Shown here one piece after another: positions 1 through 28,473 of a stretch of 34,539 nucleotides of DNA. This DNA comes from Pirellulaceae bacterium (lineage in GTDB: Bacteria; Planctomycetota; Planctomycetia; Pirellulales; Thermoguttaceae), in assembly GCA_012744395.1 (NCBI GenBank), contig JAAYCB010000389.1, positions 1 through 34,539 on the forward strand, written 5' to 3'. The notes beneath the pieces were generated by a model, which did not search any database, was not told where the DNA came from, and worked only from the letters and a program-made list of their open reading frames with translations. The position numbers were made by a program, and so were the translations under genes. Within the stretch, counting starts at the first letter, position 1, and each line of letters starts with the position of its first letter.

Positions 1-67
1 CCAGGGCGAGTGCCATCCCGGCGAGAATCGCGGCGCCAGCCAGCTCCGTGCCCATCGGTGAGAACAT
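1..67 (-). CDS. N-terminal fragment of a probable membrane protein, cut by the window edge
   Basis: The minus strand opens an ATG at 67-65 that stays open to the window edge for 22 codons. The peptide begins MFSPMGTELAGAAILAGMAL and continues AL, an uncharged stretch that looks like the start of a transmembrane helix or signal anchor. A strong Shine-Dalgarno sequence, GGAGGG, lies 9 nt upstream of this ATG, which is the main reason to believe it. The gene follows the efflux operon in the same direction and is separated from it by about 360 nt that hold a long hairpin, so it is probably a separate transcription unit. The family cannot be named from 22 residues. A chance ORF is possible. Confidence 0.45.
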   Translation of the reverse strand, partial: MFSPMGTELAGAAILAGMALAL

Positions 68-430
68 CAATCGCAGCCCTCCAGCCGTCCTCCTGCCACG
101 CATGTTCCATGATACATGCTGCGGCGGCTTGCGGCCAGCCGCGCGGGGCCAGCCGCCGCCGGTCGGGCAAGCGCGGAATCTGAATTCCGCGCTTGCCCGA
201 CACGTCCCACGGACTCCGCCCGAGCAAGGATGGCGCGTGTTCGTAAACCGCAGGCGGACTGTCCATCCGGCGGGCCGAGGATCTCCGATCGCAGCCAACA
301 GGCGAAGGAACATTGGATCGGGTGCCCGGGGGCAAGTCACGCGCGGTTCGCCAATCGATGGAACCGCGGGCATCGGTTCACGGGCTCGGTTCGTACGGCC
401 AAGGGTCCAAGCCGCATGGAATCCCGCCTG
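68..430. other. Intergenic region downstream of the efflux operon
   Basis: This 363-nt stretch separates the end of the outer-membrane factor gene from the partial membrane-protein gene. The only clear structure is the long perfect inverted repeat at 162-201. The plus-strand reading frames crossing it are the antisense of the efflux gene and are arginine- and proline-rich, as expected for shadow frames. I see no other gene in it. Confidence 0.6.
162..201. repeat. Long perfect inverted repeat (18-bp arms, 4-nt loop)
   Basis: The arms 162-179 and 184-201 are perfectly complementary around the loop CTGA. The inner arm reads CAAGCGCGGAAT and its complement. There is no T-tract on either side, so it is not a textbook intrinsic terminator. 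It could still act as a 3'-end stabiliser or terminator for the efflux transcript that ends at 431, or be one copy of a dispersed palindromic repeat. Confidence 0.8.
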
Positions 431-2059
431 CTAGGCCCGCGGAGGCAACGGCGGCTGCGGCGCGGGCGCGGGCGGGGGAGCGGGAGCGGGCGCGGGCGCG
501 GGCGCCTCCTGCGGACCGGCCGCCGGCAGGGGCTGCGGGGCGTTGTTGCCCAGGCGGATTTGCCATCCGCCGCCCAAGGCTCGATAGAGCTGGATCAGGT
601 TCTGGGCGACCGAGCCCTCGGCAATCGCCAATTGGTCCTCCTGCTGGGTGAGGAATTGCTGCACGTTGAACACGCGGTTGAAGTCGACGCGCCCTTCGCG
701 GTACTGCGAGGAAACCAGCTCGACCGACTCGCGGGCGGCGTCGGCGCTCTGCGCCAACGATCGGACCTGCTGCTGCGACTTGAGGAAGCTGACGATCGCG
801 TTCTCCGCCTCGGCGTTGGCTTGGAGGACAACGTTCTGGTACTGCACCGCCAGTTGCTGGAACCGCGATTCCTGGACGTGGATGTTGTTGGCCAGGCGGC
901 CGTAATTGAGGATATCCCAACGGAACGCCGGGCCGATCGTGCCCGCAAAGGAGTTCGCGTCGAACAGGTCCTCAAAGCTCATCGCGTCGAAGTACATCGT
1001 GCCGTTGATGGTGAAGTGGGGATACAGTTCGGAGGTGGCCACGCCGATCATCGCACTCTGGGCCGCGACTTCGCGTTCCGCGCGGCGGACGTCGGGGCGG
1101 CGGCGGAGCAGTTCCGCGGGAATCCCCACGGCGACCTGCGGCGGGGCGCTGGGAATGCCCCGCTGACCGTTGAGCATCTGATCCAGGTCTTGGGGCGGCA
1201 TCCCCAGGAGAATGCAGAGCCGGTTGACCGCCTGCCTGCGGCTGGATTCGAGCGGGCGGATGCTGGCCTCGGTCTGAGCCAGGTTCGACAGGCCCTGGGT
1301 CACGTCAAGCCGCGTCACGACGCCGTTGCGGAAACGCTCCTCGGCCAGGTGCAGACTCCCCTGTTGAATCTCGATGTTTTGCTGGGCGTAGGCCAACCGC
1401 TGCTCGGCGATTCGCACGTCCGTGTAGTTGCGGGCGACATCGGCCACGAGCAGGACGAGGACGTCGTCGTAGTTCTCCACCGAGGCGTCCAGGTTGGCGT
1501 CGGCGGCTTCGATCGCGCGGCGAAACCGGCCCCAGAAGTCGAGTTCCCAGGCCAGGCTGGCGCCCAGGTTCCACGTGCTGTAGGGCTGGGCGAAGATCCC
1601 GCCGATGCGGCTGTTCTGGCTGACTTCGGTGCGGGTGTAGTCGCCGAAGGCCTGTTGCCCCTGGGGAAACAGGTTGCCCGCGGCGATCGCCCGCTGGGCA
1701 CGGGCCTCGATGATCCGCAATCCGGCGACGCGGAGCGAGAGGTTCTGGCGGTAGGCCGTGGCGACCAGCTGATCGAGGATCGGGTCGTTGAACGTCCGCC
1801 ACCAGGCCGCGTCGTCGACCGGCCCGACGTTCAAGGCCGGCTCGTCCACGTCGATCCAGTGGTCCGCAACGGAAGCCGCCGGCTTGCAGTAGTTCGGCCC
1901 GACCTTGAAGCCGTTGGCGATATATTCGCGCGTTCCCGTGCAACCGGTGAAAAGCATCAGAACGGCAGCGGCCAAAACGGACGACGCGGGGCAACTCTTT
2001 CGTGGGGGTGCGGGGCTGGCTGGCAACACATCCTGCGACGTTTGATGGCTGAATTTCAT
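431..2059 (-). CDS. RND efflux outer-membrane factor, NodT/OprM-type lipoprotein
   Basis: This encodes 542 residues forming the outer-membrane channel of a tripartite efflux pump. I chose the ATG at 2059-2057 over a longer in-frame extension because GGAG lies 9 nt upstream and it gives a lipoprotein signal with lipobox FTGC and the acylated Cys at residue 40. After it comes the NodT-family pattern around FKVGPNYCKP, followed by the two repeated helical-hairpin halves typical of TolC-like factors, ending near the ALGGGWQ motif. The C-terminus carries an odd extension of about 25 residues made almost only of Ala and Pro (codons within about 434-511), which the family does not need. It is the third gene of the operon after the adaptor and permease; a 318-nt spacer with a strong hairpin separates it from the permease gene. 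The substrate cannot be told from the sequence. Confidence 0.93.
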   Translation of the reverse strand: MKFSHQTSQDVLPASPAPPRKSCPASSVLAAAVLMLFTGCTGTREYIANGFKVGPNYCKPAASVADHWIDVDEPALNVGPVDDAAWWRTFNDPILDQLVATAYRQNLSLRVAGLRIIEARAQRAIAAGNLFPQGQQAFGDYTRTEVSQNSRIGGIFAQPYSTWNLGASLAWELDFWGRFRRAIEAADANLDASVENYDDVLVLLVADVARNYTDVRIAEQRLAYAQQNIEIQQGSLHLAEERFRNGVVTRLDVTQGLSNLAQTEASIRPLESSRRQAVNRLCILLGMPPQDLDQMLNGQRGIPSAPPQVAVGIPAELLRRRPDVRRAEREVAAQSAMIGVATSELYPHFTINGTMYFDAMSFEDLFDANSFAGTIGPAFRWDILNYGRLANNIHVQESRFQQLAVQYQNVVLQANAEAENAIVSFLKSQQQVRSLAQSADAARESVELVSSQYREGRVDFNRVFNVQQFLTQQEDQLAIAEGSVAQNLIQLYRALGGGWQIRLGNNAPQPLPAAGPQEAPAPAPAPAPPPAPAPQPPLPPRA

Positions 2060-2377
2060 GGCATTTTCTCCGCGACAATCGGAATACGACGCTTTGTCGG
2101 TATGATCGTCCTGGCGCATTCGATTCGCGTAGCATTTGCAGCAACGGCCGCAAAATCGTTGTGACCGGAAGACGCGGCGGAAGAACCGGGACAAGCGCGC
2201 CAAGAAGGCAAGGCGGCAAAGTCCGCCCGATCGGAATCCGCAGCGGCGGAGGAGGTCAAGAAATGCATCCGGGCAAAGGCCGCCTGGCGGCCCTTGCCCG
2301 GATGCGTTTGCCCACCTTGCCCGGCCGGCACGCGCCTGACCGGCAGTCAACCGATTGTCCCCGTCCGTCCGAGCAGT
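2060..2377. other. Spacer between permease and outer-membrane factor genes
   Basis: This 318-nt stretch lies inside the efflux operon. Minus-strand translation stays open through much of it, but the peptide is rich in Arg, Cys and Phe without a recognisable fold and has no Shine-Dalgarno-supported start, so I do not call a gene. The main feature is the hairpin at 2265-2305. Confidence 0.6.
2265..2305. repeat. Near-perfect intergenic hairpin inside the efflux operon
   Basis: The outer arms GCATCCGGGCAA and TTGCCCGGATGC pair perfectly. After one A-C mismatch the pairing continues with GGCCGCC and GGCGGCC almost to the centre, about 20 bp in all. No T-tract follows. In an operon spacer such a stem could partially terminate transcription, protect the upstream mRNA from 3' exonucleases, or lower expression of the outer-membrane factor relative to the pump. 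Confidence 0.75.
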
Positions 2378-5300
2378 CTACGCGCGCGGCGCGGCGGGGG
2401 CGGCCTGCCGCCCGTTGCCGGAGAACAGCCGGTAGATCAGCACGTAGAACAGCGGCGCGAAGAGCGTCACGAGGAACGTCGAGGTCACCACGCCCCCGAG
2501 GACACCGATGCCGATCGCGTTTTGCGCCCCGGCGCCCGCCCCGCCGGCAATCGCCAGGGGGAGCACGCCGAAGCCGAACGCCAGCGAGGTCATGAGGATC
2601 GGGCGGAGCCGCAGCTTGGAGGCCTCGAGGGTCGCCGGGATCAGTCCCATTCCCTGTTCGACGCGATTCTTGGCGAACTGCACGATGAGGATCGCGTTCT
2701 TGGTCGTCAGCCCGAGCGTCGTCAGGATCGCGATCTGGAAGTAGACGTCGTTGGGCAATCCCATCGCGCTGGAGCTGATCACGCCGCCGATCGCCCCGAG
2801 GGGCAACGCCAGCAGAATCGAGATCGGCACGGGCCAGCTCTCGTAGAGGGCCGCCAGGCAGAGGAAGATCACGAGCACCGAGAAGGCATACAGCACGCCG
2901 GTCTGCGAGCTGGCCATTCGTTCCTGGTAGGAGAGCCCCGTCCAGTCGAAGCCGATCCCCTGGGGGAGTTTCGCCGTCAACTCTTCCATCGCCTGCATGG
3001 CCTCGCCGGAGCTCCTCCCCGGGGCGGCCTCGCCCTGGATATTGATCGAAGGGAACGCGTTGTAGCGTTCGAGCTTCGGCGACCCGGTCGTCCAGTAGCC
3101 GGTGGCGAAGGAGGAGAAGGGGACCATCTTGCCCGTTTCGTTGCGGACGTAGAGCCTGTTGATGTCGTCCGGGAGCATGCGGAACGGGGCGTCGGCCTGG
3201 ACGTAGACGCGTTTGACGCGCCCGCCCTGGATGAAGTCGTTGACGTAGGCGCTGCCGAAGGCCGCGCTGACGGTGTTGTGGATCGCCGAGAGGGGCACTC
3301 CCTGCGCGCCGGCCTTCTCCCAGTCGATGTCGAGCCGGTATTCGGGCACGTCCTCCATGCCGTTGGGCCGGACATTCGCCAGCCTCGGGTCCTGGGCCGC
3401 CATGCCCAGCAGCTGGTTGCGGGCGGCCATCAAGGCGTCGTGCCCCAGACCGCTGCGGTCCTGCAACTGGAAGTCAAACCCCTTGGCCGTGCCCAGCTCC
3501 ACGACGGCCGGGGGCGCGAAGGCAAAGACCATCGCCTCGCGAAACTGCGAAAACTTGGCCATCGCCCTGCCGGCCACGGCGGTGACCTTCAGGTCCGGCC
3601 GGTCGCGGAGCTTCCAGTCCCGCAACTTGACGAACGCCATGCCCATGTTCTGGCCTCGGCCCGCGAAGCTCGCGCCGGAGATGACCATGCATGATTCGAT
3701 CGCCTCCTTCTGTTCGATCAGCAGATGATCCCGGACCTTGACCATCACCTCCCGGGTCATGTCAACCGTCGCATTGGCGGGCAGGATCGCCTGGACCATG
3801 AGCATTCCTTGGTCCTCGTCCGGCAGGTAGGCCGTCGGCATCCGCCGGAAGAGGAAAACGAAGCCCGCCACGATCAGGCCGAAGATCACCAGATAGCGGA
3901 AGACATGGGTCAGGGCCCGGTTGACCTGCTTCACGTACAGGTCGCGGCTGCGGAAAAACATGCGGTCGAACCAGCGGAAGAACGGGCGCAGGAACCAGAC
4001 GCTGGCTTCGGCCGGCTCGTGGCCCTTCGGCACCGGTTTGAGCAGCGAGACGCAGAGGACCGGCGTGAGGATCAACGCCACCAGCACGGAGAGCATCATC
4101 GAGGCGATGATCGTCACGGAGAACTGGCGGTAGATCACGCCCGTCGAGCCGCCCATGAACGCCATCGGGCCGAACACGGCCGAGAGCACCAGGCCGATGC
4201 CGATCAACGCGCTGGTGATCTGGTCCATCGACCGGCCCGTCGCCTCGCGGGGTGAAATGCCTTCTTCGCTCATGATCCGCTCGACGTTTTCGACGACGAC
4301 AATCGCGTCGTCGACGAGCAGGCCGATCGCCAGCACCATGCCGAACATCGTGAGCATGTTGATCGAGAATCCGAACATCCCGAGAATCCCGAACGTGCCC
4401 AGGATCACCACGGGCACGGCGACCGTCGGAATCAGCGTCGCCCGCATGTTCCCCATGAACAGGTACATGACGAGGAACACCAGCAAGATCGCCTCGAACA
4501 GGGTCCGCACGACGTCGGCGATGGCGACCTCGACGAAGGGCGTCGTCTCATAGGGGTAAACGACCTTCATGCCCGGCGGGAAATAGTGGCTCAGCTCTTC
4601 CATCGTGGCCTTGACGGCGTCGGCCGTCTTCAGCGCGTTGGCGCCGGGCGCCTGGCGGATCGCCAACATGGCGGACTGCTTGTCGTTGTAGAACGCCTCG
4701 ACATCGTAGAACTCGGTCCCGAGTTCCGTGCGGCCGACATCCGCGATGCGGACGATCGAACCGTCGGAATTCGTCCGCACGGGGATGGCGGCGAATTCCT
4801 CGGGCGTCTTCAGCAGGTTCTGGACGATGATCGAAGCATTCAACCGCTGGCCCTCGACCGCCGGCATGCCGCCAAACTGGCCGGCCGAGATTTCGACGTT
4901 GTACGTGCGGAGGGCGGCGACGACATCCGCCACGGTCAGGCCGTAGTCGGTCAGCTTGTCGGGGTTGAGCCAGACGCGCATCGCGTATTGCGAGCCGAAG
5001 GCCTCGACCTCGCCCACGCCGGGAACCCGCGCCAACACCTTCTCGACGTTGGAAACGGCGTAATCGCGGAGGTCCGTCCCGTCCATGCTGCCGTCTTCCG
5101 AGATGAGGGCGACCATGATCAAGTAGTTTCTGGTGGACTTGCTGACCTTGACTCCCTGCCGCTGGATGACCTCCGGGAGGCTCGCCGTGGCGAGTTGCAG
5201 CTTGTTCTGCACCTGGGACCAGGCCAGGTCCGGGTCCGTGCCCGGGGCAAACGTCAACTCGATTCGACTAGCGCCGGCAGAGTTGCTGGTGGCGGACATG

Positions 5301-5533
5301 TAGAGCAGCCTGTCGAAGCCGGTCATCTTCTGCTCGATGATCTGCGTCACGCTGTCTTCGACCGTCTTGGCCGATGCCCCGGGATAGAACGCGTCGATGG
5401 CGATCGACGGCGGGGCGATGGGGGGATACTGCGAAATCGGCAGATTGTAGATTGCCAGGCCGCCTGCCACCATCATGATGATCGCGATGACCCAGGCAAA
5501 AACGGGACGATCCAGAAAGAACTTCGATAGCAC
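2378..5533 (-). CDS. RND multidrug efflux permease, HAE1 (AcrB-like) family
   Basis: This encodes 1051 residues, matching the roughly 1050 of AcrB-type proton-driven inner-membrane pumps. The GTG at 5533-5531 is the start: GGAGG lies 7 nt upstream and the protein then begins with the classic permease N-terminus KFFLDRPVFAWV. Hallmarks include TM1, two large periplasmic loops, and the paired aspartates of the proton relay in GLLVDDAIVVVENVER at about residues 407-408, the same numbering as AcrB. It also has the PTAYLPDEDQG motif and the conserved Lys in TTKNAILIVQFAK in the C-terminal half. The pump takes drugs or lipophilic compounds from the periplasm and passes them to the outer-membrane channel. 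It follows the adaptor gene with a 55-nt gap. No disruption is visible. Confidence 0.97.
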   Translation of the reverse strand: MLSKFFLDRPVFAWVIAIIMMVAGGLAIYNLPISQYPPIAPPSIAIDAFYPGASAKTVEDSVTQIIEQKMTGFDRLLYMSATSNSAGASRIELTFAPGTDPDLAWSQVQNKLQLATASLPEVIQRQGVKVSKSTRNYLIMVALISEDGSMDGTDLRDYAVSNVEKVLARVPGVGEVEAFGSQYAMRVWLNPDKLTDYGLTVADVVAALRTYNVEISAGQFGGMPAVEGQRLNASIIVQNLLKTPEEFAAIPVRTNSDGSIVRIADVGRTELGTEFYDVEAFYNDKQSAMLAIRQAPGANALKTADAVKATMEELSHYFPPGMKVVYPYETTPFVEVAIADVVRTLFEAILLVFLVMYLFMGNMRATLIPTVAVPVVILGTFGILGMFGFSINMLTMFGMVLAIGLLVDDAIVVVENVERIMSEEGISPREATGRSMDQITSALIGIGLVLSAVFGPMAFMGGSTGVIYRQFSVTIIASMMLSVLVALILTPVLCVSLLKPVPKGHEPAEASVWFLRPFFRWFDRMFFRSRDLYVKQVNRALTHVFRYLVIFGLIVAGFVFLFRRMPTAYLPDEDQGMLMVQAILPANATVDMTREVMVKVRDHLLIEQKEAIESCMVISGASFAGRGQNMGMAFVKLRDWKLRDRPDLKVTAVAGRAMAKFSQFREAMVFAFAPPAVVELGTAKGFDFQLQDRSGLGHDALMAARNQLLGMAAQDPRLANVRPNGMEDVPEYRLDIDWEKAGAQGVPLSAIHNTVSAAFGSAYVNDFIQGGRVKRVYVQADAPFRMLPDDINRLYVRNETGKMVPFSSFATGYWTTGSPKLERYNAFPSINIQGEAAPGRSSGEAMQAMEELTAKLPQGIGFDWTGLSYQERMASSQTGVLYAFSVLVIFLCLAALYESWPVPISILLALPLGAIGGVISSSAMGLPNDVYFQIAILTTLGLTTKNAILIVQFAKNRVEQGMGLIPATLEASKLRLRPILMTSLAFGFGVLPLAIAGGAGAGAQNAIGIGVLGGVVTSTFLVTLFAPLFYVLIYRLFSGNGRQAAPAAPRA

Positions 5534-5588
5534 CGCACGCCTCCGTTGGTTGATCCGTCTAGCAAGCCCGCTCGTTGGTCCGCCCGGT

Positions 5589-6890
5589 TTACGTCGCCGG
5601 CTGGGTCGCCGTCTGAGTCTTGGCGGCGGTGGCCCGGTCGGGCTCGAAGGGGACCGCATTGACGGTCGCCCCGGGGCGGACTCTCTGCATGCCCTCGATG
5701 ATCACCCGATCGCCGTCGGAGAGCCCCGAGGAGACGAGCCACTTGTCGCCGACGGCGCGGTCGGTCGAGAGGCCGCGCTGCTGAACCTTCCCCTCGCTGT
5801 CCACGATCAGGGCGATCGGGTTGCCCTTGGGATCGCGCGACACGGCCTGCTGGGGGACGAGGATCGCCTTGTCGTTGACGCCTTCGTCGATCATCGCCCG
5901 CACGAACATGCCGGGCAGGAGCACTCCCTCGGGATTGGGAACGACGATCCGCAGGATCACCGACCCGGTCGTCGGATCGACCGTGACATCGCGAAACTTG
6001 AGCGTCCCCTCCAGCGGGTACGCCGTGCCGTCCTCGAGGACAATCTTCACGCGGTCGGTGCCGTTGTCCTTGAGGCGGCCGTTCGCCAGGCTGCGTTTCA
6101 ACCGATTCAACTCCGCGGTGGATTGCGGCACATCGATGTAGATCGGGTCGAGTTCCTGGATCGTGGCCAGGGCGACGGACTGATAGGCGGTTGCGATCGC
6201 GCCTTCGGTCACGTTCGACCGGCCGATGCGGCCGGAGATCGGCGCGGTGATCTTCGTGTAGCCGAGATTGATCCGGGCGGTCTCCAAGGCGGCCTCCGCC
6301 TGCTTGATCGCGGCGTCGGCGGCGGAGACCGCTTTCTGGTCGCTTTCGACCTGCGCTTCGGCGGCTCGCAGCGAGGCCTTGCCCCACTCGACCTCGGTCG
6401 CGGCCTGGTCGCGTTCCATCGCCGAGGCGGCACTCGTCTTCAGCAGATTCTCGTACCGCTGGCTATTGACCGTGGCGAGCTTCAACGTGGCTTGATGCCG
6501 GCTGATCGCCGCCTCGCTGGCGGCCAACGCGGCCCGGGCCCTCTCGGCCGCCGCCTTCGCGGCCGTGAGGCTTGCCGTCACATTGTCGAATGCCGCTTGA
6601 AACGGAGCCGGATCGATCTGGTACAGAACCTGGCCGGCCTTCACATCGGAACCTTCGGTGAACAGCCGCTTAAGAATCAGGCCGCTGACCTGGGGCCTGA
6701 TCTCGGCGACACGGTAGGCCGATGTCCGCCCGGGGAGTTCCGAAGTCAGCACAACACGCTCCGGCGCGACCGTCATCACGCCGACTTCCGGCGGCGGCGG
6801 CGGAGGAGCCTCCTGCTCGCCGTTGCAGCCCAGGATGGCGAGACCCAGCACCAACGCCGGAATGATCGGCTGTAAGGTTCGTTGACTCAT
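5589..6890 (-). CDS. RND efflux periplasmic adaptor (membrane fusion protein), lipoprotein
   Basis: This encodes 433 residues bridging permease and outer-membrane channel. The ATG at 6890-6888 gives a short lipoprotein signal ending ILGC with Cys22, followed by a proline-rich linker of about seven prolines. Then come the biotinyl-lipoyl half-motif (PGRTSAYRVAEIRPQVSG), a long alternating Ala/Glu/Lys coiled coil at about residues 90-175, the returning lipoyl half (INLGYTKITAPISGRIGRS), and the beta-barrel and membrane-proximal domains (around LLPGMFVRAMI). The Shine-Dalgarno is weak (GAGTGG), and the start overlaps the stop of an upstream leader ORF as TGATG. It is first in the efflux operon, controlled from the promoter at 7276-7304 about 390 nt upstream. 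Confidence 0.95.
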   Translation of the reverse strand: MSQRTLQPIIPALVLGLAILGCNGEQEAPPPPPPEVGVMTVAPERVVLTSELPGRTSAYRVAEIRPQVSGLILKRLFTEGSDVKAGQVLYQIDPAPFQAAFDNVTASLTAAKAAAERARAALAASEAAISRHQATLKLATVNSQRYENLLKTSAASAMERDQAATEVEWGKASLRAAEAQVESDQKAVSAADAAIKQAEAALETARINLGYTKITAPISGRIGRSNVTEGAIATAYQSVALATIQELDPIYIDVPQSTAELNRLKRSLANGRLKDNGTDRVKIVLEDGTAYPLEGTLKFRDVTVDPTTGSVILRIVVPNPEGVLLPGMFVRAMIDEGVNDKAILVPQQAVSRDPKGNPIALIVDSEGKVQQRGLSTDRAVGDKWLVSSGLSDGDRVIIEGMQRVRPGATVNAVPFEPDRATAAKTQTATQPAT

Positions 6891-7252
6891 CAATCCACTC
6901 CAGTGTCTAGGACCGTTGGCCACAGCGAAGCAGCTGAAAGCGAGAGGAAAAGGAGCAGTCTCCTGGACCGCTTTTCCGAAGTCAATCGATTCGTCCCTTT
7001 TCCGTCGCGGTTCCGTTCGAGAAGGTGCGGAGGATCAACCCGTGAAGCCGCCCGCGCTCGATCGGGTCTCCCCAGCTTGGGCTCGCCTTTGAATGCGACG
7101 AGGCGGAGATCGACCAACATGTCTGCCCGCAGCAGGGGATCGGCAGGCGGGGAGGCACCCTCCGTGATCCCCTGGCGAAAGCGCTCCGCCAGTCGCCGAC
7201 TGGCTCTCTCACGGCTACTGCGTTCCGACAGAGTCCGTCTAGGCAGATACAC
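6890..7252 (-). CDS. Doubtful leader ORF ahead of the efflux adaptor
   Basis: The roughly 380-nt leader of the efflux transcript holds one open frame whose TGA (6892-6890) overlaps the adaptor ATG as TGATG, the geometry of translational coupling. The frame can be extended to a TTG at 7276, but that lies inside the -10 box. The first usable start after the predicted transcription start is a GTG at 7252, with no properly spaced Shine-Dalgarno. The peptide, up to 120 residues, is very rich in Arg and Ser, has no recognised domain, and ends in a short hydrophobic patch (LLLFLSLSAASLW). It may be a real small coupled ORF, a remnant, or chance. The arginine-rich composition argues for chance. Confidence 0.2.
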   Translation of the reverse strand: MYLPRRTLSERSSRERASRRLAERFRQGITEGASPPADPLLRADMLVDLRLVAFKGEPKLGRPDRARAASRVDPPHLLERNRDGKGTNRLTSEKRSRRLLLFLSLSAASLWPTVLDTGVD

Positions 7253-7480
7253 CTCTTTTTGACCCAATTTGTGCAATTATAACGACCGTCCAGTCAGATA
7301 TCAAGACCCATCGTATCAAAAAATGACGCGTTCGTCCATTTTCCCTTGCCCGTGAGTCAAAAAACGCAGACTACCGGACGCGGCTCCAACCGGGCAGCGG
7401 TCCGATTGACAAATGCCGAACGGGTGAGGTTCGCGGCCCCCGCCCCAATGGCTCGATGCCGCCAAGCCGATCCCCTGCCT
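6893..7480. other. Control region between the efflux operon and the DUF1207 gene
   Basis: These nearly 590 nt hold no convincing gene. Reading the minus strand from the right, they contain the efflux promoter with embedded operator (7276-7304) and then the long untranslated or leader-ORF stretch down to the adaptor start. The part from about 7260 to 7345 is distinctly AT-richer than the rest of the window, fitting a promoter. Nothing recognisable lies at 7305-7480. Confidence 0.6.
7276..7304 (-). promoter_or_regulatory. Efflux operon promoter with embedded TetR-type operator
   Basis: On the minus strand TTGATA (7304-7299) and a perfect TATAAT (7281-7276) are separated by exactly 17 nt. The spacer is filled by an imperfect palindrome at 7282-7297 (plus strand ACGACCGTCCAGTCAG). 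It matches the perfect palindrome in the tetR promoter at 11 of 16 positions and keeps the GACyG-CAGTC half-sites. Repressor bound there would block RNA polymerase directly. Confidence 0.8.
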
Positions 7481-8422
7481 TCAGTAGTCATACCACAGCC
7501 CCCAGCCGAGTTGCCGTTCGTGTTCCGCATAGAAGGAGAAGTGGGGGCTCCCCCCTTCGTAGAAGTAAAGTCCGGTTCGCAAGAGCCCGTCGAGCGGATC
7601 GTCGCCGCGCCAAGCCCAACCCGCCTGGACGGCGAGATTGCCGCCGAAGTCGAGCTCTTCACGAAGGTGAACGTTGGCGGCGAAAAACGGCGCGCCGTGG
7701 AGTCCCGTGGGTTGGCGCGGGCCGCAGTCGATGCCGAATTGGAAGTGCCACGGCTGGGAGACGTCGTGGTCAAAGGCCCAGCCCATTTCCGCATACAGCC
7801 GGACACAGGGGAGGGGGTAATACGAATATCCGGCCACGAGTGTGTCGCGGGAGTAATTCAGCCGTTGAAACTGGCGATTTCTCAGCAGAAACTCGTCGCC
7901 CACATGCGAGCTGATGTGGTAGAAGCCGAACTTCCAGCGGTGCGGCCCAGCGCCATAGGTTCCGAGGATGTCGTAGCGGTAGTCCGTCGCCAGGACGTCG
8001 AGATTTCCATCCCAATCCTGCCGCAACTTCGCGCCGCCGAGGACATCGACCTGGAATCCCTCCGGCCGATCCGCGGGACCGTAGCGGAGCATCCCCACGC
8101 GGCCGCCGACCTGGGAATCCAGGAATGGGCCGCCATCGGACTCGTCAACGAGCTGCGTCCCCAGCCGCGGCTCCGCAGCGCCCGCCCAGTAGGTGTCGTA
8201 GACAAACCCGCGGGGGCGAATCTGCCAACTCCAGGGCGCGATGGCGTCGGCGGATGAGGTCTGTGCCATTTCGAGGCCGCGCGGGGCGACGAACGACACC
8301 TCCGGCGGAGCCGAGGCCAGGCCGGCTCCGGCGTCGGCGGCAGAGGCGGTCGCGGCCTGGACGGTCCAAGAGACGACTGCCAGGTAGATCAGGCCCAGAG
8401 GGCGGTTGTGATTTGGGCACAT
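7481..8422 (-). CDS. Exported DUF1207-type protein, probable outer-membrane or envelope protein
   Basis: This encodes 313 residues from the ATG at 8422; a GTG at 8452 would add ten. The N-terminus is a Sec-type signal with the hydrophobic core LGLIYLAVVSW and a likely cleavage after ATASA. The mature part is rich in aromatic residues and alternating beta-like segments (for example GGRVGMLRYG, WKFGFYHISSHVGDEF, YSYYPLPCVRLYAEMGW) and ends in aromatic WGLWYDY. This resembles beta-barrel proteins and, from memory, the DUF1207 family frequent in planctomycetes. Its biochemical role is unknown. It starts 45 nt after the tetR stop on the same strand, so it is probably co-transcribed with the repressor and may share its regulation. 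Confidence 0.8.
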   Translation of the reverse strand: MCPNHNRPLGLIYLAVVSWTVQAATASAADAGAGLASAPPEVSFVAPRGLEMAQTSSADAIAPWSWQIRPRGFVYDTYWAGAAEPRLGTQLVDESDGGPFLDSQVGGRVGMLRYGPADRPEGFQVDVLGGAKLRQDWDGNLDVLATDYRYDILGTYGAGPHRWKFGFYHISSHVGDEFLLRNRQFQRLNYSRDTLVAGYSYYPLPCVRLYAEMGWAFDHDVSQPWHFQFGIDCGPRQPTGLHGAPFFAANVHLREELDFGGNLAVQAGWAWRGDDPLDGLLRTGLYFYEGGSPHFSFYAEHERQLGWGLWYDY

Positions 8423-8467
8423 GGCTGTTCGATGATTCCTCACCCATCGCACGTTGCAGTCCCGCCT

Positions 8468-9106
8468 TCACCGAGCCGTTCGAGCAGCCTCTCGGGATGC
8501 CCGATTCGCGCACAGGCCATGGACGAAGACGGCGACCAGCGTGTCTACCGTTTCCTCGTCGGTTGGCGGGTCTCCGTCCTTCAGCTGTTGGCTGAGCATC
8601 TTCTTGGTCGCGACGAGCAACATCTCGGCGACGAAATGGGCCTTGACCGGCCGAAACTCGCCCGCCTCAATGCCCTTGGTGATCAGCCCCGCGATCAACT
8701 GGACGGCGGCCGATTCGCTCTCGGTCATCGCCTGCTTCAAGCCTCCTTCCACGTTGCTGTAGTTGGCGAAGATCTGGAAGGTCGCCCGGTGCTCGCCAAC
8801 GTAGCGCTGCCAATTCCGGATCATCGCCTCAATCTTGTCCGCAGCCGTCCGATCGGTCGCCGCGATCTGCTCGGTTGACTCCAGCAGCGGTCGGATCGTC
8901 CGCTCATGGACGAACTCGAGCAGGTCGTCCTTGCCGCGGAAGTGGTTGTAAAGGCTCCCCTTGGCGATCCCCACGGTCGCGGCAATCCGGTCCATCGTCG
9001 CGCCCGCCAGGCCGTGCTCGCCCAGAACCTCCATGACCCCGTCATAGATGGCATTCCGCATGATCGAGTCGGCCAATCGTTTTCGTTGCGCTGCGAGGCT
9101 CGTCAT
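8468..9106 (-). CDS. TetR/AcrR-family transcriptional repressor
   Basis: This encodes 212 residues. The ATG at 9106-9104 is supported by GGAGG 7 nt upstream; a 31-residue in-frame extension has no such site. Residues about 10-60 form the TetR DNA-binding domain, with the signature AGATMDRIAATVGIAKGSLY followed by NHFRGKDDLL. The rest is the helical ligand-binding and dimerisation domain, whose ligand cannot be predicted. Its own promoter at 9171-9199 carries a perfect 16-bp palindrome in the spacer, and a variant of it sits at the same place in the efflux promoter. It therefore most likely represses itself and the adjacent pump and is released by a pump substrate, like AcrR or TtgR. This regulatory link is inference from the two matching sites. 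Confidence 0.93.
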   Translation of the reverse strand: MTSLAAQRKRLADSIMRNAIYDGVMEVLGEHGLAGATMDRIAATVGIAKGSLYNHFRGKDDLLEFVHERTIRPLLESTEQIAATDRTAADKIEAMIRNWQRYVGEHRATFQIFANYSNVEGGLKQAMTESESAAVQLIAGLITKGIEAGEFRPVKAHFVAEMLLVATKKMLSQQLKDGDPPTDEETVDTLVAVFVHGLCANRASREAARTAR

Positions 9107-9170
9107 GTTCCGCCTCCAAAACGTGCCAGCTCTGAAGTTGACCAGAAGTACCGCCGTGTGACTAAACGAT

Positions 9171-9199
9171 ACAATACATGACTGCTCAGTCATTGTCAA
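9171..9199 (-). promoter_or_regulatory. tetR promoter with perfect palindromic operator in the spacer
   Basis: On the minus strand a consensus TTGACA (9199-9194) and TATTGT (9176-9171) are spaced by 17 nt. The spacer contains the perfect palindrome ATGACTG-CT-CAGTCAT at 9178-9193 (plus-strand reading). The predicted transcript starts about 60 nt before the tetR ATG. The layout is the same as at the efflux promoter. Confidence 0.85.
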
Positions 9200-9399
9200 G
9201 ATCAGTTGGTCATTTCCCGATTCGAGGGGTGGGCAATGGCACGGAAATGTCAGGAGGTGTGCCTCGTCAGAGGGGTAAAGCGGCCCAACGTACGCATGGC
9301 CGCATCGGTTGCACGAGCCGGTTCAAGACGCCGATCCGCCTTACTTCCGCGATCCGCCCGTCTTTCCATCCTTCGCCTTCCCCCTGTGGATTCCAACCG

Positions 9400-11115
9400 A
9401 TGAAACGTCGCCAATTTCTCGAAGCCTGCGGCTTGTCCGCAGCCGCTTGTTGGTACCCTGCGCTTGTCTCCGCGGCCGAGCCTCGATCAGGGCAGATCGC
9501 GCCTGGCCGGTCGGTCAAGGCCGACGTGCTGATCGTGGGCGGCGGCCTGGGCGGATGCGCGGCCGCCTTGGCGGCAACGGAAGCAGGGCGAAGCGTTCTG
9601 CTCACGGAGCCGACCGATTGGATCGGCGGCCAGCTTACCCAGCAGGCCGTCCCCCCGGACGAGCATCGCTGGATCGAGCGTTGCGGCGCGCCTCGATCGT
9701 ATCGCGCCCTGCGGGACCACATCCGCGCCCACTATGCCCGCTATTACCCGCTCAGCGACCGGGCCAAGGCGCAGGAGTATCTGAATCCCGGCTCGGGGTC
9801 TGTTTCGAGGCTCTGCCATGAACCGCGGGCAGGGCTGGCCGCACTCGATGGGCTACTCGCTCCCGCGATGGGCAGCGGCCGTCTGACCCTGCTGTTGGAG
9901 ACCCGTCCGGTCCGGGCCGACGTCGAAGGCGACCGCATCCGCGCGGTCGAACTGGCGACGCCGGACGGCGCGATGGTCGTCGAGGCGGAATACTTCATCG
10001 ACGCCAGCGAAACGGGCGAGCTGCTGCCGCTGACCGGAACCGAATACGTGACCGGCTCCGAGTCGCGGGCCGAGACCGGCGAGGAGTCGGCCTCTCCCGA
10101 GGCTCGGCCGGGCAACATGCAGGCGATCACGTGGTGTTTCGCCCTGGACTACTGCGAAGGGGAAGACCACACGCTCGATCGGCCCGCCGAGTACGATTTC
10201 TGGCGAAGCTACCGGCCGCAGCTGACGCCGCCGTGGCCCGAGCAGCCGCTGCTGTCGCTCTGGTACAGCAACCCGCACACTTGCGAGCCGAAGGAACTGG
10301 CGTTCCTGCCGCCCGATTCCGCCTTTGCCGGCCAGCAGACCAAGGCCCTGAATCTCTGGGTCTACCGGCGGATCATCGCTGGCGCGAATTTCGCGCCGGG
10401 AGTGTTCGACCACGACATCACGATCGTCAACTGGCCGCAAAACGATTACATGCTCGGCAACATCTTCGCAGTTAGTCCCGAGGAAAAGCAGCGGCACCTG
10501 GCCGGCGCGGCCCAACTCAGCTTGTCGCTGGCCTACTGGCTGCAAACGGAAGCGCCGCGGCCGGACGGCGGCCAGGGTTGGAGGGGGCTCCGCCTCCGCC
10601 GCGATGTCGTCGGGACCAGCACGGGGTTGGCCAAATACCCGTACATCCGCGAGTCGCGGCGAATCAAGGCGGAGCGGACGATTTTCGAACAGGACCTTCG
10701 CGGCGGCGCCGGCCGGACGATCGGCGGCCAACGAGTTGCCCCCCGGCTGGCCGATTCGGTTGGCGTGGGCAGCTACGGGCTCGACACGCATCCGACGACC
10801 GGCGGCGACAACTACTACCATGTCGGATGCCCGCCGTTTCAGATTCCGCTCGGCGCGCTGATTCCTCGCCGCATGGAGAACTTGATCGCCGGCTGCAAGA
10901 ACATCGGCACGACCCACCGCAGCAACGGCGCTTATCGCCTGCACCCGGTCGAATGGAATATCGGCGAGGCCGCCGGCGGACTGGCGGCGTTCTGCCTTGC
11001 CGATCGTGAGCCTCCGCGGCAGGTCCGCCGCGAATCGAAGCGGCTGGAGCGTTACCAGGCGATGCTCGTGGCGCGCGGCGTCGAGCTGGATTGGGACCGC
11101 CTGGCCGAATTGTGA
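9400..11115 (+). CDS. Tat-exported FAD-dependent oxidoreductase
   Basis: This encodes 571 residues. The ATG at 9400 gives a twin-arginine-type signal (MKRRQFLEACGLSAAAC), so the folded flavoprotein is probably exported to the periplasm or envelope. Residues about 42-70 form the FAD-binding Rossmann fold, ADVLIVGGGLGGCAAALAAT, followed by the conserved TDWIGGQLTQQ. Later conserved blocks include MQAITWCFALDYCEG, YPYIRESRR and the C-terminal flavin-contact region ENLIAGCKNIGTTH. This fits the FAD-dependent oxidoreductase family (PF12831 type) that is abundant in planctomycetes and often annotated from carbohydrate loci. The substrate is unknown. No close Shine-Dalgarno is visible. It converges on the sulfatase gene to its right, separated by 80 nt that hold a small hairpin. 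Confidence 0.9.
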   Translation: MKRRQFLEACGLSAAACWYPALVSAAEPRSGQIAPGRSVKADVLIVGGGLGGCAAALAATEAGRSVLLTEPTDWIGGQLTQQAVPPDEHRWIERCGAPRSYRALRDHIRAHYARYYPLSDRAKAQEYLNPGSGSVSRLCHEPRAGLAALDGLLAPAMGSGRLTLLLETRPVRADVEGDRIRAVELATPDGAMVVEAEYFIDASETGELLPLTGTEYVTGSESRAETGEESASPEARPGNMQAITWCFALDYCEGEDHTLDRPAEYDFWRSYRPQLTPPWPEQPLLSLWYSNPHTCEPKELAFLPPDSAFAGQQTKALNLWVYRRIIAGANFAPGVFDHDITIVNWPQNDYMLGNIFAVSPEEKQRHLAGAAQLSLSLAYWLQTEAPRPDGGQGWRGLRLRRDVVGTSTGLAKYPYIRESRRIKAERTIFEQDLRGGAGRTIGGQRVAPRLADSVGVGSYGLDTHPTTGGDNYYHVGCPPFQIPLGALIPRRMENLIAGCKNIGTTHRSNGAYRLHPVEWNIGEAAGGLAAFCLADREPPRQVRRESKRLERYQAMLVARGVELDWDRLAEL

Positions 11116-11133
11116 CCGGACGCGGCGGTGCCC

Positions 11134-11159
11134 GCCCGGCCGCCTGCTCGCCGCCGGGC
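11134..11159. terminator. Weak hairpin between convergent genes
   Basis: The arms GCCCGGC (11134-11140) and GCCGGGC (11153-11159) flank a 12-nt loop in the 80-nt gap between convergent genes. There is no T-tract. A bidirectional terminator role is only suggested by position. Confidence 0.3.
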
Positions 11160-11195
11160 GCAAGCGGCTCGGCCGGTCTCCGGGCGGGGAATCGC

Positions 11196-12605
11196 TCACC
11201 GCTTGCGCCACCGCGGCTCCCAGTCCGGAAGCTCGGTCCGAGCGGTTTGTAGGTAGCCGCTGATCGTCTCGGCAATCTCGGGGTGCTGGGCTGCGACGTC
11301 GGTGTTTTCGGCGATCTCGCTGTCCAGGTCGTAGAGCGTGATCGGCGCGTCGGGGCTGCCGGAGCGGATTCCCTTCCAGCGGCCCCGATACAACGCGGCT
11401 TGCTTGAAACCGCCCTCGTGGAACTCCCAGTAGAGCCATTCGTGCCGCGCCTGTCTGTGGGTCTGGCCGAGGAGCGTTGGCGCGAAGCTGAGCGAATCGA
11501 TGTTCTCGGGCGCTTCCGCGTTGGCCAACTCGGCGGCCGTGGCCATCCAGTCGCCGAAGTAGCCGACGTGCGGGCTCTCAACACCCGGCGCTACCTTGCC
11601 CGGCCACCAGGCGATCAGCGGCACGCGGATGCCGCCGTCGGTGAGGCTGCGTTTGATGCCGCGCAACGGGCCGGAAGGGTTGAAGCGGCCGAGGTCGTGT
11701 TTGCTCTCATTGTGCGGCCCGTTGTCGCTGGTGAAGACAACCAGCGTCCGTCGGGCGAGCCCGTGCTCCCGGAGCGCGTCGAGCAGGCGGCCCACGTGGC
11801 CGTCCAGCCGGGTGATCATCGCGGCCTGACCCTTGTCCTGCGCCGGCCAGTCGCGATCGGCGTAAGGGCCGTAGTCGGGCACGTGCGCGCCGTCGCCGAG
11901 AATCCGCGCCCGCTCGTTGTTGGCGTGCGGGACGACCATGCTCCAATAGAGAAAGAAGGGTCTGTCCTTGTTCTCGGCGACGAACTGGAGGGCCTCCTCG
12001 GCGAACAGGTCGTCGGCATAAACGCGCGCTTCGGTGGCGTATCCAGCGCCGCCGTCGCCCACGCGGGTGACGCGGTTGGGCAACGCGACGCGCTGTTCGT
12101 TCCTCCAGAGAAAATCGGGGAAATGGTTGTGCGCATGGCGCTGATTCAGGTAGCCGAAGAAGTCGTTGAAGCCGTGCTTACGCGGCAACCCGCTCTCCGC
12201 CGCGCCGATGTCGCCGAGGCCCCACTTGCCGACCAGCGCGGTCCGATATCCGGCCTTCTGGAGCATTGAGGCCACGGTGACGTCGCCGGGCCTGAGCGCC
12301 TGGGCCGCGGGGTTGGCCTTGCCGGCGTTGCCGCGGACGCGGGTGTGGCCGTGGTGCTGGCCGGTCATCAGCACGCTCCGCGACGGAGCGCAGACGGTGG
12401 CGCCGGCGTAGAACTGCGCAAATCGCATCCCCTCGGCGGCCATCCGATCCAGCCGCGGCGTCCGGATGACCTTCTGGCCGTAGCTGCCAAGTTCGCCGTA
12501 GCCGAGATCGTCGGCCATGATCCAGATGAGATTCGGCTTGTCGGCTCCCAGCGCGTGCGCAACCAGGAGGGACAAGGATGCAACCAGGGCAAGTGGGATC
12601 TTCAT
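11196..12605 (-). CDS. Secreted type I sulfatase (arylsulfatase-like)
   Basis: This encodes 469 residues. The ATG at 12605-12603 has GAGG 10 nt upstream and opens a Sec signal peptide, MKIPLALVASLSLLVAHALG. The catalytic signature is CAPSRSVLMTG with Cys72, the cysteine a formylglycine-generating enzyme converts to the active aldehyde hydrate. The N-terminal metal-site motif IWIMADDLGYG (with the Asp pair) and the later TSDNGPHNESK supply the calcium ligands. The protein hydrolyses sulfate esters in the periplasm or outside; in planctomycetes such enzymes usually act on sulfated polysaccharides. The exact substrate and S1 subfamily cannot be read by eye. It lies 115 nt downstream of a second sulfatase in the same direction, so the two are likely co-expressed. 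Confidence 0.95.
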   Translation of the reverse strand: MKIPLALVASLSLLVAHALGADKPNLIWIMADDLGYGELGSYGQKVIRTPRLDRMAAEGMRFAQFYAGATVCAPSRSVLMTGQHHGHTRVRGNAGKANPAAQALRPGDVTVASMLQKAGYRTALVGKWGLGDIGAAESGLPRKHGFNDFFGYLNQRHAHNHFPDFLWRNEQRVALPNRVTRVGDGGAGYATEARVYADDLFAEEALQFVAENKDRPFFLYWSMVVPHANNERARILGDGAHVPDYGPYADRDWPAQDKGQAAMITRLDGHVGRLLDALREHGLARRTLVVFTSDNGPHNESKHDLGRFNPSGPLRGIKRSLTDGGIRVPLIAWWPGKVAPGVESPHVGYFGDWMATAAELANAEAPENIDSLSFAPTLLGQTHRQARHEWLYWEFHEGGFKQAALYRGRWKGIRSGSPDAPITLYDLDSEIAENTDVAAQHPEIAETISGYLQTARTELPDWEPRWRKR

Positions 12606-12720
12606 GAAAGCGTGCCTCGCAGAAGGGGAAACTGTCGGCAGACGACCGCCGCGGGGAGCCCGCCGAGATCGAACCGCGTGAGGTGTGGCGTTTTCGTTGA
12701 GCGTCTCATGAGGGGGACCG

Positions 12721-14346
12721 TCAAACGTCGTCGCCCTGAATCGCCTTGAGCAACTCCCCGAGGCGCTCGACAACGTCGGGGTGCTCGGCGTAGACGTTGC
12801 GGGTCTCCGAGGGGTCGGATTCGAGGTGGTAGAGCTGGCCGGCCGGGCCGCCGTCCTTCGCCGGGTCGAGGGTGCGGGGTTGGGTGAACCCGCCCGAGCC
12901 GCGTGCGGGGATCAGCTTCCAGGGGCCCTGCCGGATCGCAAACACCCCCGTGTAGGAATGGTGCACGGCATACTCGCGGACAGGCCGGTCAGGCCTGGCA
13001 TTCAGCAGGGCCGGCAGGATGTTTCGGCTGTCGGGCCCGTCGCCCGGCGGCAGCTTGGCGCCGACGATCGCGGCGGCGGTGGCCAGGAGGTCGGTCAACT
13101 CGATCAGTTCTCCGCTGTGCGTGCCGACCGGAGTCCTGCCCGGCCAGCGGACAATGAACGGCACGCGGTGGCCGCCTTCCCAGATGTCGGCCTTGGTGCC
13201 GCGGAGATGAGCGTTTCCCTGGTGCCCGAACTCGCGGATGTGCGCGCCGCGGCCGCTGATCCTGTAATGTTTGACGTCGTCGGCCTCCCGGGCTTCCCAG
13301 TAGTGGTAGAGGCCGCCATTGTCGGACGTGAACACGACCAGCGTGTTGCCTGCCAGGCCGGTGCGGTCGAGCGCGTCGAGAACCGCTCCCAAAAACGCGT
13401 CTGTTTCCACGACGAAATCGCCATACGCGCCCGCCTGGCTCCTGCCGCGATATTCGGCGTTGACAACCACGGGTAGATGCGGCGACGTGAGCGGAGCATA
13501 GAGGAAGAAAGGCCGCTTGGGCGATCTCGAGGCGTGATTCTCGATGAACGACATGGCTTCTCCCGCAAGCCGCGGCAGGACGCCGTGGATCGTGAAATCC
13601 GGCGATCGCACCCCTTCGTCGACGGCCATGAAATTCGCGTCGCGGACTGTCTCTTGAGGCAGGAGGGGAAGCTGCAACACGCGGTCGTCCTGGAGAAAGC
13701 AGAAGGGCGACATGTTGAGCGAGGCGGCGATGCCGAAGTAATGATCGAACCCGACCGCCGTGGGGCCGCCCGTGAACGGTCTGGTAAAGTCCACGTCGCG
13801 ACCCGGGCGCGGCCCAGTGCGATCGAGCGGAACGGCGTTCGTTTCGCCATCCCGCTTGCTCGTCCACTGAAGGCCAAGGTGCCATTTGCCGATCGCCGCG
13901 GTGGCGTAGCCCCGCTGCCTGAGCAACGAGGGGACGGTGAGGCGGCCGGGCCCGATCAGGGGCGGGTCGAAGCCGTCCAACACCCCGCGTTTCAGCCGCG
14001 TCCGCCAGCAGTAACGTCCCGTGAGCAGGCCATAGCGGGTGGGCGTGCAGACGGACGAGGGCGTGTGCGCGTCGGTGAACCTCATGCCTTCAGCCGCCAG
14101 GCGGTCGACGTGCGGCGTGGGAATCTTGGACTGCGGGTTGTAGCAGGAGACATCGCCGTAGCCGAGATCGTCGGCAAGGACAAGAACGATGTTTGGCGCA
14201 CGCGGCTTCTCTGGGCCATCGGCGCTGGCCAGAGGGCAGAGTGACAAGCAAGCCAAGAGGCCGAGGATCGGTGTGGCGACTTCGTGCGGCATATCGCGGC
14301 GGATTGTTCGCCCGACCGCCAAGATGCTCCCCGTGTTTTCAGACAT
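12721..14346 (-). CDS. Second secreted type I sulfatase
   Basis: This encodes 541 residues from the ATG at 14346-14344, chosen because GGAG lies 9 nt upstream; an ATG at 14292 would give a shorter signal peptide without a ribosome site. The hydrophobic core ILGLLACLSLCPLASA marks export. The active site is CTPTRYGLLTG with Cys100, the C-x-P-x-R form with Thr in place of the more usual Ser or Ala. Metal ligands are in LVLADDLGYGDVSCYNP and in FTSDNGGLYHY. The C-terminal region (RQGPWKLIP, LYHLESDPSETRNV) is typical of arylsulfatase A-like proteins. It is only distantly similar to the downstream sulfatase, so this is not a recent duplication and the pair may remove different sulfate groups. Confidence 0.95.
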   Translation of the reverse strand: MSENTGSILAVGRTIRRDMPHEVATPILGLLACLSLCPLASADGPEKPRAPNIVLVLADDLGYGDVSCYNPQSKIPTPHVDRLAAEGMRFTDAHTPSSVCTPTRYGLLTGRYCWRTRLKRGVLDGFDPPLIGPGRLTVPSLLRQRGYATAAIGKWHLGLQWTSKRDGETNAVPLDRTGPRPGRDVDFTRPFTGGPTAVGFDHYFGIAASLNMSPFCFLQDDRVLQLPLLPQETVRDANFMAVDEGVRSPDFTIHGVLPRLAGEAMSFIENHASRSPKRPFFLYAPLTSPHLPVVVNAEYRGRSQAGAYGDFVVETDAFLGAVLDALDRTGLAGNTLVVFTSDNGGLYHYWEAREADDVKHYRISGRGAHIREFGHQGNAHLRGTKADIWEGGHRVPFIVRWPGRTPVGTHSGELIELTDLLATAAAIVGAKLPPGDGPDSRNILPALLNARPDRPVREYAVHHSYTGVFAIRQGPWKLIPARGSGGFTQPRTLDPAKDGGPAGQLYHLESDPSETRNVYAEHPDVVERLGELLKAIQGDDV

Positions 14347-14445
14347 CGTGCGGATCTCCATCAGGCCCCGAGAGGCTGCCGGTTCGGATGACTTTTCTGC
14401 GCGTGCCCTGGCCCGCGGCGTTATCGCCCGCGATCCGCCGTCTGT

Positions 14446-15698
14446 TCATCGGTAGCGCAACTCCACCCGATCGACTTCGGCCGGACCGTTCCAGCGCAAT
14501 CTCAGGAAGTGATTTTCCGCGGGCACGGTCGCCTCATACTCGACCATCGTCCGGCGCTGTCTGCCGGCGGCGCCGCCCGGCGGCGACGGCAACCGGCGTT
14601 GCCTGCGCGTTGGTTCGAGTTCGCGGAATGTCCGACCGTCCCGCGATACCTCCAGGGTCAAGTCGGAGAGGTCCTCGGCGCAGAACGCCACCACGCCAGC
14701 ACGCTGGATTGCCCCGGGCACGTCCTAGGTCATCCAGTCGCCCTCGGCTCCCTTGACCCGGAAGAGGTATTCCGCATAGAGCCCGTTATAGTCGTTGTTC
14801 AGCGCGAGACCGTCGGATTTCTCGTGAGCGCGAGAGAAATCCTGCAACTCGTCGATTAGGCAGACCTCCTTTTGGCATACAAGTGCCGCGTCGGCAAGTC
14901 GATGTTCGGGTCCACCAACAAGGGTTGACCGGGCCGGTGGCGCGTTTCGGACACCAGGTGGTTGGCGTCCAGGCCCTTGATGAAGGCCGCCATCTCGCTC
15001 AGCCACGCGTCCGGCGCGCTGCGCATTTCATTGCCGAATTGCCAGGCCAGAATCGCCTTGTCTTCTCGATAGGGCACGCCGGTGATCTTGTTGGTTCGCG
15101 TGAGCACGTAGCGGAGAGTCGCTCGGTAGTCTTCCTTCAACTGGGAATCCGTGTAGAATTCCGCCCGCTTCTTGCCGCGATGGGCCGCGTACGTGCCGAT
15201 GCCGCCGAGGTAGTCTCCCGACTCCGCGGTCAGGTCGAGAAGGGCGCGAACACGGTACTTGTTCGCCAACGCCAGCAGGTTGTCAATGACCTTGAACGAT
15301 TTCTCGTTGAACCGCCCCGGTCCCTGGACGTAATGCCACGTCATGCGGCCGTCGGGGAGGCTTTCCTGCGGGTCGCGGATCGGCAGGTTCCAGAGCCGCA
15401 CTACCCGCAGGTTCATCTGGTCCAACGTCTTGAAGGCATCCTCCTGCTCCCACGGCGTGGGCAGCTGCAGCCGCTCGGGCAGATAGCGCGTCCAGTCGTA
15501 GGGCAGCACCAGCCCCGGCATGTTGACCCCGAGGAAGCGGAACGCGCGCTCGCCGTCCATCAACCGCCCGCCTTGGCGGGTGATGAAGTGATCGAATCCC
15601 TGCCGCTCGTCTTGGGCTACCGCCTCCGGCGAGGCCGCCGCAAGGAAACAGCAGAGCAACGGACCGGCCGGCAATCGTCGTGCGTTCATCGCGTTCAT
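14446..15698 (-). pseudogene. Broken secreted glycoside hydrolase (GH5-like), barrel truncated
   Basis: The start is sound: ATG at 15698 with AGGAG 8 nt upstream and a signal peptide ending near AVA. The first 280 residues look like the N-terminal half of a TIM-barrel glycosidase related to GH5 mannanases/cellulases, including AILAWQFGNEM with the probable acid/base Glu224. After DPNIDLPTRHLY the frame stops at 14858-14856. In a different frame the sequence continues as the C-terminal domain (LIDELQDFSRAHEKSDGLAL and onward to DRVELRYR, ending at 14446), itself interrupted by an in-frame TAG at 14727-14725. The second barrel half, which should carry the nucleophile Glu, is missing. An internal deletion, a frameshift and an amber codon together make this a pseudogene unless the assembly is wrong. 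It lies in the same direction as the flanking hydrolase genes. Confidence 0.8.
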
Positions 15699-15811
15699 CG
15701 GCAAGCTCCTGGGAGGTTTGCGTGGGATCAAGCCCCAGATGGGGCGTCCTGTTGGACGAGCCTGTCTGCGGTTGCCGCCGGTCCGCATCGTCAACTGCCG
15801 GGCCGCGCTGC

Positions 15812-17698: not shown

Positions 17699-17937
17699 GG
17701 TGACTTTCTCCTTCGATTCCGAGGTCTGTCTGCGGGGGCTGCCTTCGTTGCGTTGACTTTGCCCGGGGCAACTTCGCGAAGCCAAGTGTAACGGATCGCC
17801 GCAAGCATCGCCACCCGGCGGACCTTCGGGGAAATGGGGGCCGCCGCGCGCCGCCCGCGAGCGCGGAATCGCCCGGCGATCGCTGCGCTGCGGGAGCCGG
17901 CCACCGATCCGGCCGGAGTGTGCCCGCTGCGAGCGGT

Positions 17938-28418: not shown

Positions 28419-28443
28419 CGAGAATGATAGCTGAGAAGAAAGG

Positions 28444-28473
28444 AATGGCCAAGGTCCAAGTCTCAATGGCCAA
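28444..28473 (+). repeat. Short direct repeat in the hydB-hydA spacer
   Basis: The 9-mer AATGGCCAA occurs at 28444-28452 and again at 28465-28473. It lies just before the two palindromes and may belong to the same inserted or repeat-derived segment. Confidence 0.5.

Follow-up and report, generated by a model that had tools for sequence, protein, structure and literature searches.

Spacer operators of two TetR repressors, one of them dead, at a planctomycete RND efflux locus, and a proposed repressor takeover

The window, a stretch of 34,539 nucleotides from a Pirellulaceae bacterium (assembly GCA_012744395.1, contig JAAYCB010000389.1), carries a TetR-family repressor gene, tetR1, and an RND efflux pump operon, and a first-pass annotation of the sequence described a palindrome in the -35/-10 spacer of the promoter in front of each. 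This raises the question of which repressor each palindrome belongs to, and which repressor acts at the pump. All of the genes concerned are encoded co-directionally on the minus strand, and the features discussed are collected in Table 1.

Table 1. Genes, promoters and operator-like dyads at the efflux locus, in window positions.
Feature	Position	Strand	Remarks
Outer-membrane efflux channel (OMF)	431..2056	minus	OEP, TIGR01845
RND permease	2378..5530	minus	ACR_tran, TIGR00915
RND periplasmic adaptor (MFP)	5589..6890	minus	RND_mfp/MexA-type; start ATG 6890
tetR2 remnant	6982..7246	minus	tblastn match to C-terminus of intact TetR2, in two frames
Pump promoter TTGATA-17-TATAAT	7276..7304	minus	11/12 to consensus; former tetR2 promoter
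Pump primary operator TGACTGGACGGTCG	7283..7296	minus	Putative 14-bp TetR-type dyad in the former tetR2 promoter; register 2+14+1
Distal dyad GGACGAACGCGTCA	7324..7337	minus	7/10; 41 bp upstream of pump operator
DUF1207 protein	7481..8422	minus	PF06727, E=3e-20; leading hydrophobic signal-like segment
tetR1, TetR-family repressor	8468..9106	minus	212 aa; ATG 9106 behind GGAGG
Weak secondary dyad or half site GTATCGTTTAGTCA	9159..9172	minus	20 bp downstream of primary operator; 7/10 to consensus
tetR1 promoter TTGACA-17-TATTGT	9171..9199	minus	10/12 to consensus; same hexamer/dyad layout in the G162 and G221 orthologues
TetR1 primary operator TGACTGAGCAGTCA	9179..9192	minus	Putative; fills spacer; register 1+14+2
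Secondary dyad TGACCAACTGATCT	9199..9212	minus	20 bp upstream of primary operator, touching -35 box; 8/10 to consensus

The pump genes form a HAE1-type tripartite RND efflux operon, with MFP, permease and OMF in a row and matches to RND_mfp, TIGR00915 and TIGR01845 above cut-off; the nearest named records carrying this pump are metagenome-assembled genomes of Pirellulales and Planctomycetaceae. The RND-OMF intergenic region contains a strong terminator-like stem (minus strand, 2265-2305; 19 pairs, 14 of them GC), so that the OMF might be expressed less than MFP-RND. TetR1 combines an N-terminal helix-turn-helix (HTH; TetR_N, E=2e-13, 50.2 bits against a cut-off of 24) with a C-terminal ligand-binding domain (TetR_C_24, 33.8 bits against 26.4), and a putative palindromic operator, identified from sequence and orthologue conservation, overlaps its own promoter. 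When TetR1 was compared with the NCBIfam equivalogs AcrR, MtrR, FadR, BetI, RutR and FasR, the best scores reached no more than about 51 bits, where the cut-offs are at least 118. The DUF1207 gene lies directly behind tetR1 and probably shares its transcript. Elsewhere in the window, translations read by eye at 24757-30434 show NuoE/NuoF-type-like subunits and a ferredoxin/[FeFe]-hydrogenase-like subunit, then an acyl-CoA synthetase (ADP-forming)-like gene; the NuoF-like subunit is fused to a glutamate-synthase-like oxidoreductase. Together these genes look like an electron-bifurcating hydrogenase cluster.

Both promoters were located where the first-pass annotation had placed them. The tetR1 spacer, ATGACTGAGCAGTCATG, reads A-TGACTGAGCAGTCA-TG, and the pump spacer, TCTGACTGGACGGTCGT, reads TC-TGACTGGACGGTCG-T. 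The tetR1 16-mer equals the pump spacer at 11 of 16 positions, as claimed, and a random 17-bp spacer reaches 11/16 or better with P ~0.00035. The tetR1 palindrome had been called perfect; its 7-bp arms are, but they flank a central AG that is not palindromic. TTG 9199 was rejected as a tetR1 start, being inside the -35 box, and the ribosome-binding site and relatives favour ATG 9106. The dyad TGACCAACTGATCT upstream of the TetR1 primary operator (background P ~0.0009 for 8/10) has a counterpart at -20 in both TetR1 orthologues, and the downstream site GTATCGTTTAGTCA (P ~0.008 for 7/10) has similar ones at +20/+21.

Between the pump promoter and the MFP gene lies what is left of a second repressor gene, tetR2. 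The TetRs encoded directly upstream of the orthologous MFP in genomes G064 and G098 match the open frame 7276-6890 with their C-terminus, at 48% and 42% identity, respectively; a reading of this frame as a novel coupled upstream gene was rejected on the C-terminal TetR2 match. In seven genomes (G162, G221, G280, G395, G382, G064 and G098) an intact TetR2 of ~206 amino acids heads the orthologous pump operon. The window remnant of ~265 nucleotides has its GTG start changed to CTG, has lost ~120 codons including the whole HTH, and has a frameshift before the old stop, and neither the window nor sister species G348 retains the HTH and open frame of ~206 codons of an intact tetR2. G348, which belongs to the same genus and has an MFP 94% identical, has in common with the window the tetR2 deletion, the promoter and the tetR1-DUF1207-pump order, with a further 4-nucleotide indel in its remnant. 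Because two assemblies agree, the decay is not an assembly artefact.

The promoters of the intact tetR2 genes indicate where the pump promoter came from. They read TTGATA-aaTGACTGGCCGGTCGg-TACAAT in G162, TTGATA-aaTGACTTACCGGTCGa-TAAGAT in G221, TTGATA-agTGACTGGTCAGTCTg-TATTAT in G395, TTGATT-aaTGACTGGCTGGTCAa-TAAAAT in G382, TTTATA-gaTGACCGTTCGGTCGt-TAAGAT in G064 and TTGAAA-aaTGACCGGACGGTTGa-TAAACT in G098, with dyads that include TGACTGGCCGGTCG, TGACTTACCGGTCG and TGACTGGTCAGTCT in one register. That register, 2+14+1, occurs in all of the orthologous tetR2 promoters and in the window pump promoter. In G280 (L067), tetR2 is intact and the spacer dyad is degenerate (TGCCCTACAAGTCC), with the 2+14+1 register and hexamers kept. 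Since the pump promoter has tetR2-type sequence and the 2+14+1 register, and the decayed tetR2 lies directly downstream, it is the old tetR2 promoter. The proposal that the two promoters are simple twin targets of one TetR does not fit this tetR2 sequence and register.

TetR1 has a different origin. In the tree its clade, supported at 100/100, also contains proteins of two other genera, G221_t1 (G221:C422) and G162_t1 (G162:C331), and is separate from the TetR2 clade (100/99). These orthologues head a different RND operon, in which an OMF gene diverges from tetR1-MFP-RND, and in G221 a DUF1207 gene comes after tetR1-MFP-RND. Their promoters are TTGACG-aTGACTGCTCAGTCAcg-TAATTT (G221:C422) and TTGACG-aTGACTAATCGGTCAtg-TATTGT (G162:C331), with TGACTGCTCAGTCA and TGACTAATCGGTCA at the place of the primary operator. 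Both have the 1+14+2 register of the window tetR1 promoter, which is clear in G162; in G221 the -10 is weak and is readable one base further. We take the register, 1+14+2 or 2+14+1, to identify promoter ancestry. No counterpart of the pump in these orthologous operons was found in the window's genome (G000) or in G348, where the best permease hits were only 25-31% identical. With its MFP and RND genes apparently lost from the window genus, tetR1-DUF1207 is the remainder of one pump operon and now adjoins another that is without its own repressor.

The two repressor clades use one class of operator. The first-pass annotation gave the consensus as GACyG-N2-CAGTC; within this order, TetR1-like and TetR2 promoters together give TGACY-N4-RGTCA. 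TGAC[TC]-type half sites are common to both clades, the TetR1 clade using TGACT and TGACC. The recognition helices are not the same, KGSLYNHF in TetR1 versus KGSLYRYF/HYF in TetR2, which counts against TetR1 acting at the pump operator. Twelve of the 14 TetR1-like promoters have, on one or both sides, a secondary dyad of at least 7/10 whose distance is exactly 20 or 21 bp (background P 0.008 for at least 7, 0.0009 for at least 8); these frequencies are not independent because some of the promoters are related, although the spacing recurs in several lineages. In the TetR2 promoters a further dyad lies distally, at -42, and scores 8/10 in three of them. With dyads phased about two helical turns apart, several dimers may sit on the same face of the DNA, possibly binding cooperatively. 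A scan of genome contigs with the MFP alignment showed that the TetR preceding the pump in distant phyla is mostly a different one, and these promoters were left unpooled because their operators differ (TGAAT/TGACG-N4-ATTCA).

The pump operator could be a relic, in which case TetR1 would control only tetR1-DUF1207 and the pump would be constitutive, or transcribed only by read-through that starts at the tetR1 promoter. Read-through into the pump is possible because all genes point the same way, and in sequence the operator at the pump is typical of tetR2 and has not shifted toward the TetR1 consensus. The comparison with G348, whose pump promoter is TTGATG-17-TATAAT, speaks against this reading. 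A block of operator plus -10, specified beforehand, is identical at 22 of 22 positions, while the other aligned sites of the region, in the dead tetR2 and its flanks, differ at 94 of 522 (Fisher p=0.014 against the 22/22 block), a rate similar to the 18.8% at MFP third codon positions. Only this pre-specified test counts, because, by a scan statistic, chance alone would be expected to leave 22 identical bp in a row at some point in the region (P=0.79). The distal dyad, GGACGAAyGCGTCA at -41 in both window and G348, lies in a 34-bp block, picked after the fact, that differs at only one of its 34 positions. The use of TGAC[TC]-type half sites by both clades also counts against a relic. With p at only 0.014, the comparison gives modest evidence for selection on the pump operator, and we regard the relic as unlikely.

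Another repressor might bind the pump operator in trans. A stand-alone TetR elsewhere in the window's genome (L027, G000:C231, 7121-7771) groups at 99/98 with its closest relative, the G313 TetR, which heads the same pump operon, and its own promoter has the same class of operator; two dyads, TGACCAAGAAGTGG and TGACCTCATGGTCA, lie there 21 bp apart. However, the gene is not beside a pump, and no orthologue of it was found in G348 (~91% complete), where the pump operator is kept. Control of the pump by C231 therefore seems to us improbable. Among the candidates for binding the pump operator, TetR1 is the strongest: it is adjacent, has the same operator class and belongs to a clade that uses both TGACT and TGACC, and C231, the one other close TetR of the genome, was not found in G348.

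The genome-wide frequency of such sites bears on whether they are mere coincidence. The dyad alone is not rare and is uninformative: TGACTGNNCAGTCA with up to two mismatches occurs at 69 places in the genome versus 52 for the control, and TGACYN4RGTCA at 12 versus 14. One site with a single mismatch, at C412 (TGACGGTCCAGTCA), was set aside; it is inside an open frame and has no promoter hexamers at promoter spacing. Hexamers matching at least 10/12 at promoter spacing surround only ~0.05% of window positions. A composite pattern of both hexamers and the dyad, TTGANNN{1,3}TGACN6GTCN{1,4}TANNNT, has exactly two matches in the 6,173,447-bp genome (551 contigs), the pump and tetR1 promoters, and one match in G348; the reversed pattern, used as control, has none. 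A genome-wide search for further targets, the DUF1207 gene among them, had been suggested; the composite scan returned only the two known promoters and no operator with promoter hexamers for DUF1207 alone. The comment that such clean promoters are unusual holds for promoter plus dyad but not for the hexamers alone, which occur at three sites in 1-20000 against 1.7 +/- 1.3 in shuffled sequence. It is thus highly improbable that two intergenic stretches, richer in AT, just happen to contain palindrome-like spacers with no regulatory role. Mismatched dyads are common and promoter-like hexamers no more frequent than in shuffles, but the composite is unique to these two sites genome-wide, and its recurrence in many genera, ahead of orthologous genes and with the register exactly kept, refutes chance. 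This conserved architecture confirms that both are real promoters with putative TetR operators in their spacers.

In TetR-type repression, a dimer on a spacer-filling dyad excludes RNA polymerase. Starting from the operator sequences, the conservation of both architectures, the death of tetR2 and the separate origins of the two promoters, we consider it quite likely that the two spacer operators serve steric TetR repression and that TetR1 has inherited control of the pump through the retained tetR2 operator. Each would be a sigma-70-type promoter with a TGACY-N4-RGTCA operator set into its -35/-10 spacer, where a bound repressor dimer would block RNA polymerase until a pump substrate or other ligand released it. 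The tetR1 promoter would be TetR1's own autoregulated promoter, driving tetR1-DUF1207. The pump promoter would be the ancestral autoregulated promoter of tetR2, a gene that has lost its DNA-binding half and is now a leader of ~370 nucleotides ahead of MFP-RND-OMF. TetR1, its original pump genes gone, would bind both sites and repress the pump through the tetR2 operator. Weaker TetR1 binding at the pump than at its own site, proposed in the first-pass annotation along with earlier induction of the pump, is plausible as a prediction, because the pump site ends in G and the operators of the TetR1 clade end in A.

The whole would then be a natural repressor takeover, in which an orphaned TetR that had lost its pump and an orphaned pump whose TetR had died were joined through the retained operator, a history that we think on balance probable. 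Takeover is possible because the TetRs of this planctomycete clade share TGACY-N4-RGTCA in arrays phased at ~20/21 bp. Different TetRs stand ahead of the MFP-RND-OMF operon in several lineages (L065 in G313, L068 in G225, L071 in G079, and L105-L184), so the pump seems to have exchanged its repressor repeatedly. Relative to the first-pass annotation, the analysis adds two repressors of origin, one of them dead, a family-wide operator class with 20/21-bp phasing, and a register that marks ancestry. It offers an apparent family-wide operator code for planctomycete efflux repressors, a group on whose operators our literature searches returned no study. It also provides a clear case of a pump that has survived the loss of its repressor, with the operator retained and a neighbouring paralogue positioned to use it. 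The pump and tetR1 promoters, natural sequences set apart by a one-base shift in register and a few changes in the operator, make a clean pair for studying the strength of spacer-operator repression.

Known systems offer parts of this arrangement. The mtrR promoter of Neisseria gonorrhoeae has an inverted repeat between the -10 and -35 hexamers (PMC6692510), and the likeness extends to an RND pump locus with a TetR-family regulator whose own promoter spacer holds the repeat. There, however, the repeat is 13 bp (AAAAAGACTTTTT) and the promoters are divergent and overlap, whereas here the genes are co-directional and two separate promoters carry TGAC-type dyads, one of them from a lost repressor. 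The engineered EilR/Jungle Express promoters place a TetR-family operator in a 17-bp spacer for tight repression (PMC6127294); theirs is another operator sequence, and the layout at this locus arose naturally and is shared by several planctomycete genera in which it has been conserved. QacR binds as two dimers on overlapping palindromes within ~28 bp (PMC6018408). More than one dimer per control region is also suggested here by dyads recurring at ~20/21 bp, but these lie about two helical turns apart and do not overlap. As in AcrR/MtrR-type systems, a local TetR gene accompanies MFP-RND-OMF and its own operator implies autoregulation; here, however, the cognate repressor gene, tetR2, has died, and the TetR next to the pump originated in a different operon. 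The architecture is of a known regulatory kind, real and conserved, with an unusual history.
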